From Promethearchaeota archaeon (GTDB taxonomy: Archaea > Asgardarchaeota > Lokiarchaeia > Sigynarchaeales > MK-D1): 19,860 bases of DNA. Location of the stretch: assembly GCA_016839385.1 (NCBI GenBank), contig JAEOUK010000246.1, positions 1 to 19,860 of the forward strand. Reading direction: 5' to 3'. The notes beneath the pieces are model-generated. The model ran no database searches and had not been told where the DNA came from. It was given only the letters and a program-made list of their open reading frames with translations. The number at the start of each line of letters is the position of its first letter. Within the stretch, counting starts at the first letter, position 1. Shown piece after piece: positions 1,593 through 10,029 of this stretch. A program made the position numbers and the translations under genes.

Positions 1593-1662
1593 CTCGGAAC
1601 ACCCTTGCGGGGTTGTCCGCTTTTTCCGTTCAGTTTAGGAAAAAGGTTCATCCCATTCCGAG
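1593..1662 (-). promoter_or_regulatory. Candidate SECIS element (eukaryote/Lokiarchaeota-like) for the vhuU UGA codon
   Basis: Read on the minus strand. The UGA at 1650-1648 can form tandem G.A pairs with GA at 1617-1616 (A1648.G1617 and G1649.A1616), the core of eukaryotic SECIS elements. Above it is an 8-bp helix: CTTTTTCC (1645-1638) with GGAAAAAG (1627-1620). This is capped by a 10-nt loop that starts TAAA (1637-1634), matching the unpaired apical adenosines. Below the core, GGG (1654-1652) can pair with CCC (within 1612-1609) and CTCGGAA (1662-1656) with TTCCGAG (1599-1593). The stretch is visibly richer in G+C than the surrounding intergenic DNA. SECIS elements of archaea usually lie in the 3' UTR, and Lokiarchaeota SECIS are reported to resemble the eukaryotic type. 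Here the core overlaps the predicted stop codon. A simpler hairpin (CGGA 1619-1616 with TCCG 1598-1595, ACCC with GGGT) is a competing fold. The fold was drawn by eye, not computed. Confidence 0.7.
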
Positions 1663-1803
1663 TTTGATCCTCTTTTTCAGCAGCTCCTCACCGGATTCGT
1701 TCACTACGGTAAGGTGGGCTGCACACGATAGTCAAGGATCATAGCAGCGAATTACCATCTCTAAAAGGTTGGTAATTCCCTCGTTTAATTTATCTTCGGG
1801 CAT
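1648..1803 (-). CDS. vhuU: VhuU-like selenopeptide: C-terminal piece of the [NiFe] hydrogenase large subunit (Sec at UGA 1734-1732)
   Basis: This 51-residue frame starts ATG at 1803, 16 nt after the mvhA stop, with GGAG about 13 nt upstream. It contains one in-frame UGA at codon 24 and ends at UGA 1650-1648. Reading codon 24 as selenocysteine gives IRCYDPULSCAAH, an exact match to the DP(C/U)xxCxxH motif that ends [NiFe] hydrogenase large subunits. U24 and C27 would be two of the four ligands of the Ni-Fe site, the other two being in MvhA. In some methanogens this segment is likewise a separate selenopeptide, VhuU. The 21 residues after H30 (starting LTVVNESGEELL) look like the propeptide normally removed by the maturation protease. 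If UGA were a stop, only a 23-residue stub would remain and the enzyme would lack an active site. The downstream fold is a SECIS candidate. The gene is normally missed because the UGA breaks the frame. Confidence 0.88.
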
Positions 1804-8184: not shown

Positions 8185-10029
8185 TTAATCTAAAAATGTT
8201 TCAAATAAGGGACTATTGTCTGTAAATGGTGGAGTTCCTGCCGGTTGGTCTGGTCGTAATAGTCCAATGCTGTAGGGATCCTTTCCATAAGCATAATCAA
8301 ATAACTGAGTAACGTAAACCACTGGAATTTGGAAAGCTTCTTCGATCTGATCCTTGAAAATTCCATTTATTTCTACTTGACCAAGATCATACTGAAGATG
8401 ACAGAAGGGACAACATGTGATAATGGCTTGTCCTCCAACATTTCTTACATTTTCTAGCTTCTCCCGGGTGAAGTCTAAGGAAACCTCCTTTACGGCTGTT
8501 CTTACAGCTCCTCCTGCTCCGCAACACATATTTTTATCTTTGTAGAAAATACTCCTTGCGCCTGTAATGTTAACCAATTCATCAAAAAATCGTGGTTCTT
8601 CTGAAACAGCACCCCATGGTTTAGTATCTGAAGGTTTGAGTATATGACATCCATAATGAACTGCTACGGGCAAATTTCTCCATTTTTTTACAAAATGCTC
8701 CTTTAGTTTATCTTTACCTATATCGTAATACATTGCTTCAATGATGTGTTTAACTTTGATACTACCTTTATACTCCTTCCTGATTTTCTTAAGATGTTCA
8801 TTGACCATATTTTTTTTATCTGATTGATGTTTCAACTTATGGTCGGCTTCTAGAAGAGTTCCATAGCATCCATTACATAATGTGAGGATGTCGCTTTCGT
8901 TTTTCTCTCCAATACTTATATTTCGAGCTGCAATGGTGAGCCATGTAGGAATATCAAATGAACGAAATACTCCTGGTGCTGGACAACATGAAGCACCATC
9001 CATTTCCTTTAGTTTTACTCCCATTTCATCCATGAATAAACGCGTTGCAGCCTCTATCACTGGATATCTATTAGGAATCACACATCCAAGGTAAAGAGAA
9101 TAATCCAATTGTTTAGTGTCACCAGCGACCATTTTTGTGTCTACTTGTTGGAGATTCTTGTGATTTTCAGGGGGAGGGACTTTATCGATAAAGATTGCTT
9201 TCATATGGTTAACCCATGGCCAGATATCTGGTTGTAACTCATTAGCTTGATTGTATGCTTTAAGTGCATTCTCATACTTCTTGGATTTTTCAAACATTAA
9301 TCCATAATTTACCCAGACATGTGGATTGCTTTTAATTTCATCGAATTCTAATGCTTTTTTGAAGTACATTTCAGATTTATCAAATTCTTTCAAATCTGAA
9401 TAAGAAAGAGCAATATTATGCAGTGAAATAGGATATTTGCAAGAATCTGCAGGAATTTTTTCTAATATATCAATAGCTTTCTTGAATAATTTCTGCTTTA
9501 GATAGATAAAAGCTTGATAGAAATCGGTCTTATAACTATAATTTTCCTCGATATTAGGGATAATTCGGATTTTTTTTATTAATCCCTCAGCTCTTTCAAG
9601 TTCATTTGCTCTAACTAAACAATGTAATACAGTAGTCAATGCTTCTGGATCTTCAGGTGCAGCGTCTCTTGCAGCGATACACGCATTAACTAACTCTTCA
9701 GTCTCATTATAATGTTCAGAGATATTCGCGATGCCAATCCATCCACGATAATCAGTAGATTCGATTTCAGTTGCTTTTTCATACATCCTTAATGCTTCAT
9801 GATACATCTCTCGTTGGATGAAGATTTTACCTAGCTCAAGATAAGGTCCAATTTCATTTGGAAATCTTTTATTTGCTTTATTTAACCATGAAAATGCTTC
9901 AATAATATTACCTAATTGCCTATAATACTCCGCAATTTCCATATGAGCAATATAATTTTTAGGATCTTTGTCCACTTCAGATTCGAGTTTTTTTAGTTCT
10001 GACTTGATAGAGTCTGATGCATTCGCCAT
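8185..10029 (-). CDS. TPR-repeat / HdrB-like (double CCG domain) fusion protein, 614 aa
   Basis: Residues 1-275 are TPR-type helical repeats, for example AHMEIAEYYRQLGNIIEAFS, YLELGKIFIQREMYHEALRM and SLHNIALSYSDLKEFDKSEM. After a linker (276-307), residues 308-600 form a complete HdrB-like module with both cysteine sets. The first is C316, C348-C349, C385, C388; the second is C461, C502-C503, C540, C543. All spacings match HdrB, so both noncubane [4Fe-4S] clusters should be present. It is clearly a paralogue of the HdrB at 3132-4019: compare LYLGCVIPNRYP with LFPGCMIGNRLP. The catalytic module probably reduces a disulfide-like substrate, and the TPRs probably bind a partner or scaffold. No HdrA or HdrC is adjacent. 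A GTATAAT about 25 nt before the ATG suggests a leaderless mRNA, with a 12-bp palindrome over the expected start site. Confidence 0.9.
   Translation of the reverse strand: MANASDSIKSELKKLESEVDKDPKNYIAHMEIAEYYRQLGNIIEAFSWLNKANKRFPNEIGPYLELGKIFIQREMYHEALRMYEKATEIESTDYRGWIGIANISEHYNETEELVNACIAARDAAPEDPEALTTVLHCLVRANELERAEGLIKKIRIIPNIEENYSYKTDFYQAFIYLKQKLFKKAIDILEKIPADSCKYPISLHNIALSYSDLKEFDKSEMYFKKALEFDEIKSNPHVWVNYGLMFEKSKKYENALKAYNQANELQPDIWPWVNHMKAIFIDKVPPPENHKNLQQVDTKMVAGDTKQLDYSLYLGCVIPNRYPVIEAATRLFMDEMGVKLKEMDGASCCPAPGVFRSFDIPTWLTIAARNISIGEKNESDILTLCNGCYGTLLEADHKLKHQSDKKNMVNEHLKKIRKEYKGSIKVKHIIEAMYYDIGKDKLKEHFVKKWRNLPVAVHYGCHILKPSDTKPWGAVSEEPRFFDELVNITGARSIFYKDKNMCCGAGGAVRTAVKEVSLDFTREKLENVRNVGGQAIITCCPFCHLQYDLGQVEINGIFKDQIEEAFQIPVVYVTQLFDYAYGKDPYSIGLLRPDQPAGTPPFTDNSPLFETFLD

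Follow-up and report, generated by a model that had tools for sequence, protein, structure and literature searches.

A VhuU-type gene that would complete a truncated VhuA in Asgard archaeal DNA, with a UGA likely read as Sec and a SECIS predicted to form a three-way junction

The window, by which we mean the whole 19,860-nt stretch of DNA analysed here, carries on its minus strand a small gene of the VhuU type behind a vhuA-like gene. We hold with high confidence that the product of this gene would complete the truncated VhuA, that its in-frame UGA is likely decoded as Sec, and that its SECIS is predicted as a three-way junction lying over the vhuU stop codon. A VhuU-type selenopeptide completing VhuA had been proposed from the letters alone, in what we call the sequence-only reading, and the proposal now has the support of homology, of a UGA retained in relatives, of a SECIS that covaries among them and of the Sec genes present in the two nearest genomes. 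The SECIS had no place in that reading and is added here to the gene finding. Gene callers that stop at UGA would skip the vhuU-type gene and make the hydrogenase appear dead, and a missed vhuU bears on how hydrogen metabolism is read in the closest archaeal kin of eukaryotes.

The vhuU-type gene and its operon

The vhuU-type gene (1803-1648, minus strand; 51 codons plus stop) begins after a 16-nt gap behind the vhuA stop codon (1822-1820, minus strand) and terminates with UGA at 1650-1648. Another UGA, in frame at 1734-1732, falls at the metal-ligand position, residue 24, and is the predicted Sec codon on the basis of the translation and of conservation in relatives. With U at UGA, the product reads MPEDKLNEGITNLLEMVIRCYDPULSCAAHLTVVNESGEELLKKRIKLGMG, in which RCYDP-UGA-LSCAAH fits the motif D-x-Sec-x-x-C-x-x-H with UGA at Sec. 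Frame, coordinates, gap, UGA and motif had all been given correctly by the sequence-only reading, as sequence and translation bear out. Translated with C in place of U, the frame scores 56.7 bits (E 1.5e-15) against NCBIfam VhuU (NF041786), below the curated cut-off of 70, and is therefore named VhuU-type, not that equivalog. That the 51-codon frame with its in-frame UGA is a real VhuU-like gene, beyond chance, is confirmed, and the gene very likely encodes a selenopeptide.

The vhuA-like large subunit (3130-1820, minus strand; 436 aa) matches chain g of PDB entry 9sfi (E 1.5e-119) and scores 452.9 bits against NCBIfam VhuA (NF041785), under the curated cut-off of 800 for that model. Its product keeps RICGIC at residue 61 and ends in ...LPDPWIK, without the DPCxxC ligand motif, in agreement with the earlier claim that this subunit, then called MvhA, lacks the C-terminal motif. 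The two halves of the ligand motif are split in the sequence over two adjacent genes, vhuA and vhuU. PDB entries 9sfi and 9t1s hold a 418-residue chain that is the best VhuA match and a 27-residue chain that matches VhuU, shows X where Sec is expected and stops a single residue past CAAH; the split form is therefore seen in structure.

Upstream of vhuA on the minus strand lie an hdrB-like gene (4043-3132; TIGR03288, 260.5 bits, cut-off 345.15), an hdrC-like gene (4527-4021; TIGR03290, 97 bits, cut-off 160) and a vhuG/mvhG-like gene (5939-4533; NF045875, 232.1 bits, cut-off 450). The resulting order, vhuG-hdrC-hdrB-vhuA-vhuU, is the same at the related loci L001 and L002. At 468 aa the VhuG-like protein is longer than its 286-position family model, to which two of its stretches match, and in the alignment with the L048 vhuG residues 331-468 fall on a part that earlier residues already cover; these alignments suggest that the protein contains an inner repeat. 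Elsewhere in the window, a gene with TPR repeats fused to an HdrB-like domain (8185-10029, minus strand) scores 381.9 bits with TIGR03288, above the cut-off of 345.15. L002 has a gene 75% identical to this TPR-HdrB upstream of its operon, and an acyl-CoA dehydrogenase gene upstream as well.

Retention of the UGA and the Sec machinery of relatives

Source names among the best 120 of 2784 protein relatives were mostly Asgard (Promethearchaeota, Lokiarchaeota, Helarchaeota, Odinarchaeota, Hermodarchaeota), which points to an Asgard archaeon as the likely source of the window. From a scan of genome contigs we took the best 80 of 408 vhuA loci, whose record titles name Asgard lineages in 78 cases, archaeon for L056 and Bathyarchaeota for L059. 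A vhuU with UGA lies within 600 nt of vhuA at 62 of these best 80 loci and about 1.5 kb downstream at six (L004, L020, L025, L033, L037 and L042; UGA in 6/6). UGA occupies the Sec place in all 63 near genes (within 600 nt, window included), and every one of the 68 readable relative vhuU genes at the best 80 of 408 loci keeps UGA together with both sides of the motif. The sequence-only reading had put forward a Cys homologue in related genomes as a check; not one of these 68 genes has Cys where the Sec codon stands. Contigs end within 172 nt after the vhuA match at L044, L049 and L064.

A motif search that required Pro before UGA recovered vhuU in 2 of 80 relatives only (one variant also let D vary), and the motif was widened because most relatives have DC before UGA. 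Among the 63 near genes, window included, the residues before Sec are DC in 59, DP in three (window, L001 and L002) and DF in one (L059), and the six late genes have DC. The DC forms carry an extra Cys beside the metal ligand where the window (1737-1732), L001 and L002 have Pro, a difference that could alter the chemistry. In four pairs of relatives, 15/23, 14/19, 12/16 and 10/14 of the changes behind the UGA are at third codon positions. Comparing the window with L001 gave no clear third-position excess in this stretch (7/16 changes).

Seven of the 80 vhuA loci (L051, L057, L062, L066, L068, L071 and L074) have no vhuU motif in the examined DNA; six are titled Thorarchaeota and one, L062, Lokiarchaeota. 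Their vhuU may be made elsewhere, or they may be inactive. Two Sigynarchaeota loci have a 29-nt frame-shifting insert in vhuU between the YD and F-UGA codons (L050, 11396-11424; L055, 9463-9491), and minus this insert both would read YDFULSCAAH. The inserts differ in 5 of 29 letters, a hairpin is possible, and the SECIS-like element downstream looks intact by eye. An intron, bypass, a frameshift or damage may be behind the insert; inspection by eye gave no support for a bulge-helix-bulge intron. L055 also contains a Cys form, DLCMPCAAH, in another frame about 1.9 kb before the vhuA end. L059 (WJJB01000003.1), titled Bathyarchaeota, combines an Asgard-like vhuA with a DFU vhuU that resembles Sigynarchaeota, from mislabelling or transfer. 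As for gene order, vhuU follows hdrC and hdrB matches in L033; in L007 it adjoins vhuA and has hdrC and hdrB matches behind it, which rules out that vhuU is always the last gene.

The search for Sec genes that had been proposed along with the selenopeptide was run on the two nearest genomes, G001 (genome of L001) and G002 (genome of L002), which belong to one genus. It found tRNA-Sec and SepSecS in both, whereas PSTK and SelB stayed below their cut-offs and SelD passed only in G002. For tRNA-Sec the scores were 64.3 bits in G001 and 66.1 bits in G002 (gathering cut-off 47, also passed by 5 of 14 controls). SepSecS scored 280.9 bits in G001 (465.1 with its neighbour) and 438.1 bits in G002; it was found in all eight genomes searched and, among the 14 controls, in Methanocaldococcus jannaschii only. 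The SelB-like factor reached 237.8 bits in G001 and 229.5 bits in G002, both just below the cut-off of 242.25, for a family that matches all 14 controls, two of them over the cut-off. SelD of G002 has its own in-frame UGA and passes its cut-off at 159.7 bits; the best G001 score, 89.9 bits, is below it and comes without an in-frame UGA. PSTK scored 133.1 bits in G002 and 19.5 bits in G001, with a cut-off of 290.5 that none of four Asgard genomes passed. Of the six PSTK, SelD and SelB scores in the two genomes, only that of SelD in G002 passes its cut-off. G001 is smaller (2.5 versus 3.8 Mb), and its gaps may therefore be missing data. The vhuD gene has one UGA in G002 and two in G001.

Were the UGA at 1734-1732 an ordinary stop, the frame would be a decayed remnant and VhuA would be inactive or served by another subunit. 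The seven vhuA loci that lack a local vhuU would fit such decay, as would the fact that Sec genes are seen only in genomes of relatives. Decay is at odds with the UGA and both motif sides kept in 68 of 68 readable relatives, with a SECIS that covaries among relatives and follows the gene, and with the presence of Sec genes in the nearest genomes; we consider it very improbable. A changed code or plain readthrough, by which UGA would be read as an amino acid other than Sec, could explain the open frame alone. The gene itself, however, ends with UGA, as do 61 of 63 vhuU elements (the stops of L013 and L027 are moved by +5 and +45 nt, with a frame break after the Sec codon), and the first UGA stands at the position printed X in the solved homologue, which makes decoding as another amino acid less credible still than decay. 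Sec at the first UGA is the reading that we carry forward.

A predicted three-way junction SECIS across the vhuU stop

From comparison with relatives, the SECIS of the window is predicted as a three-way junction that straddles the vhuU stop codon (1662-1593, minus strand). Its AUGA core (1651-1648, minus strand) is formed in the sequence by the last base of a Gly codon and the UGA stop, and ATGA is present in 58 of 63 elements. The covariation alignment places the 5' arm of the closing stem, CUCGGAA, within the vhuU coding region (1662-1656, minus strand) and its 3' arm, UUCCGAG, at 1599-1593 (minus strand). Folding predicts hairpin 1 at 1645-1620 (minus strand), with 8 bp and a 10-nt loop, UAAACUGAAC, followed by C-GGA; hairpin 2, ACCC-CGCAA-GGGU (1613-1601, minus strand), is predicted from folding, covariation and the loop count. 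Judged by eye, the window has the components of a type I eSECIS-like element, with AUGA at 1651-1648, two mismatches plus 8 bp, a 10-nt loop and GGA.

Folded by itself, the window gives a rod, in which a 5' GGG pairs with the CCC of hairpin 2, at -23.4 kcal/mol versus -18.7 kcal/mol for the junction. L001, which has nearly the same sequence, folds as the junction with AUGA kept open. The stability of the window 3' region folded alone is not unusual (z -1.28 and -0.84). Rfam, searched with curated and permissive thresholds, returned no match to the window SECIS, and neither of our SECIS models R2 and R3 found the element of the window.

Folding across relatives covered 58 vhuU elements (3 of the window clade, 36 Loki and 19 Thor). 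With AUGA unpaired, 53 of these 58 have the junction as their lowest-energy fold, versus 95 of 1160 shuffles. The set leaves aside the six late vhuU genes and, in addition, L038, L059, L072, L077 and L080; none of these last five folded as a junction, and with them the count is 53 of 63. Without the AUGA constraint the junction is the lowest-energy fold in 50 of 58, versus 44 of 1160 shuffles. With AUGA unpaired, the five exceptions among the 58 are the window, L063, L070, L075 and L076. A junction-like element was seen by eye further downstream in L059. Native closing-stem arms pair at a mean of -14.0 kcal/mol versus -9.3 kcal/mol for swapped arms, and swapped arms reached native pairing in 0 of 2000 trials overall, 0 of 2000 within Loki and 4 of 2000 within Thor, all with relatedness among the sequences still contained in the figures.

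Pairing in alignments points the same way. In a plain MAFFT alignment of vhuU from the window clade and Thor (22 sequences), 88.8% of cells pair, versus at most 44.4% when partners are slid by 1-3 columns; all seven closing-stem pairs show changes on both sides, and for hairpin 2 the paired share of cells is 97.6%, one of its four pairs having changed on both sides. For Loki vhuU, 16 MAFFT rows are 98.1% paired, and 42 rows fitted to R3 are 97.7% paired, with both-side changes in 11 of 21 pairs, two of four in hairpin 2, which pairs in 98.7% of cells of the fitted alignment. In Loki, a base of the 3' UTR covaries with one in the coding region, the third of the Gly codon in V-G-L-G (C-G 22, U-A 12, U-G 4, unpaired 1 in 39 distinct rows). 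The 38 selD elements fitted to R2 are 83.3% paired, with slid partners at 49.1% or less; the closing stem pairs in 98.7%, hairpin 1 in 99.6% and hairpin 2 in 92.8% of cells, with both-side changes in five of five hairpin 2 pairs, and the apical ministem is poorly aligned (28.9%). Before fitting, 14 selD rows were 79.7% paired. The two fitted alignments among these three lean to structure, and R2 and R3 contain hairpin 2, which favours that hairpin. The R2 alignment (A7) draws its 38 matches from 37 sources out of 67, and at E 0.05 the remaining 30, window included, gave none; the R3 alignment (A8) has 42 matches from 46 sources, with none from the window, L001, L002 or L038. An automatic junction scan of selD 3' regions, positive in 25 of 40 versus 14 of 120 shuffles and in several cases at wrong places, served only to choose the rows of R2. 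For the vhuU genes of three clades, and for selD too, covariation supports the three-way junction.

The loop of hairpin 2 contains YGC or YGU in 99 of 102 vhuU and selD elements, versus 16.5% of random pieces of equal length taken from those elements, and a GNRA tetramer occurs in 27 of 38 selD hairpin 2 loops. Behind vhuD genes with UGA, R3 matches elements in L141 (E 9.3e-8) and L139 (E 3.6e-5), and R2 in L130 (E 8.8e-4) and L137 (E 0.017). In three of these four, L141, L130 and L137, the closing stem as well as hairpin 2 can be made out by eye; in L139 the closing stem is present and the pairs of hairpin 2 are broken in the alignment. Two extra model matches, in L130 (E 0.0062) and in L127 (E 1.3e-7; the vhuD match there is on the other strand), are linked to no gene.

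A genuine Sec gene could instead have a SECIS of the published rod shape, with lower stem, internal loop, core and upper stem, in which case hairpin 2 would not be genuine. In the window the rod is favoured by 4.7 kcal/mol, and it draws further support from the five of 58 elements, window included, that do not fold as a junction, from the broken hairpin 2 pairs of the L139 vhuD element, from the 30 of 67 sources that gave no match to R2 with its hairpin 2, and from published models, which in the text covered have a single apical loop. Against the rod stand hairpin 2 pairing of 97.6%, 98.7% and 92.8% in three alignments, two of them fitted to models that contain hairpin 2, the changes on both sides in five of five selD hairpin 2 pairs, and a YGC/YGU loop in 99 of 102 elements versus 16.5% of random pieces. 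We judge the rod unlikely, and the three-way junction is the structure used below.

Proposed mechanism and comparison with known systems

A ribosome at the UGA at 1734-1732 would accept Sec-tRNA-Sec, delivered by the archaeal Sec elongation factor, presumably owing to a folded SECIS that begins about 70 nt downstream. That ribosome would go on to translate the 5' arm of the closing stem, stopping at the second UGA, inside the SECIS core AUGA, so that each new ribosome would need the SECIS to have refolded. By analogy, a maturation protease probably removes the tail of VhuU behind ...CAAH. Sec24 and Cys27 of VhuU would then join Cys63 and Cys66 of VhuA as ligands of the NiFe site in an Hdr-linked hydrogenase. 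Within the SECIS, hairpin 1 would carry a eukaryote-like kink-turn core, and we propose that hairpin 2, which has the YGC/YGU loop, may dock a factor or make a tertiary contact. We infer both Sec insertion at the UGA and this role of hairpin 2.

A broader hypothesis, which we regard as possible rather than probable, is that the Asgard SECIS is two-headed in vhuU, vhuD and selD, with a kink-turn hairpin and a YGC-loop hairpin on one stem. The second head would dock a still unknown archaeal SECIS-binding factor, and this head would have been lost or replaced when eukaryotes gained SBP2. According to the parts covered of PMC11227280 and PMC11881835, an SBP2 homologue is unknown in archaea and archaeal SECIS recognition is open; the conserved hairpin 2 is a concrete candidate site for that recognition. 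PMC11881835 also reports, in the text covered, a Loki SECIS (from vhuU, by the plasmid list) that was non-functional in Methanococcus maripaludis. Our guess is that a 3'-UTR swap may have omitted that part of the closing stem which is in the coding region.

Asgard FrhA, MvhA and VhuU selenoproteins have been published (Huang 2024, PMC11227280), as has VhuU of Atabey-/Freyarchaeia in wetland Asgard genomes (PMC11291895), and Asgard VhuU is also treated in a 2026 AEM review (PMC13188914). Even from the portions of these papers covered, the novelty given to the gene by the sequence-only reading was overrated. As a gene, vhuU of the window adds a member to this published Asgard VhuU family, sharing family and superphylum with the selenoproteins described in the covered parts of PMC11227280 and PMC11291895. 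Within the Asgard FrhA/MvhA/VhuU comparison, the window clade has DPU whereas most relatives have DCU.

That AUGA overlaps the UGA stop is likewise already stated in the covered text of PMC11227280, which also gives a frhA lower stem, [U/C]GG_C[C/U][A/G], that fits the closing stem of the window, and a type I eSECIS-like model with an AUGA_GA core, an upper stem of 7-15 bp with at most two mismatches and a loop of 8-20 nt. Published Asgard SECIS models comprise core, upper stem, apical loop and lower stem in the parts covered of PMC11227280 and PMC13188914, and a 2022 review (PMC9499178), in its covered part, describes the Loki SECIS as having one apical loop. Relatives of the window show a covarying second hairpin; by energy alone the window prefers the rod. 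Titles, abstract starts and text parts, including those of PMC9723677 and PMC8211752, contained no published second hairpin or three-way junction in an Asgard SECIS, and in the part covered of PMC2746813 a three-way junction appears only in a reference on H/ACA RNA. The comparison covered running text, and a second hairpin may have been described before. As far as the literature was covered, a SECIS in the form of a three-way junction common to Asgard selenoprotein genes would be new.

Among known elements, the euryarchaeal GAA_A SECIS of Methanococcales (PMC11881835, in the text covered) is, as in the window, a short GC-rich hairpin of the 3' UTR. Hairpin 2 was rejected as such an element: GAA directly before and A directly after it occur in 0 of 102 elements. 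With the type I/II eSECIS-like elements, as set out in the text covered, the window has in common the AUGA_GA core, the upper stem, the A-bearing loop and the lower stem, and it differs from them in a predicted second hairpin, placed after the core GA and before the lower stem's 3' arm. At the protein level, NCBIfam VhuU NF041786 and PDB 9sfi/9t1s, like the window, have a separate DP-Sec-xxC-xxH peptide beside a VhuA chain without the motif, whereas the window stands apart from these systems in scoring below the NCBIfam cut-offs, in its VhuG-HdrC-HdrB-VhuA-VhuU operon and in its Asgard-type SECIS.
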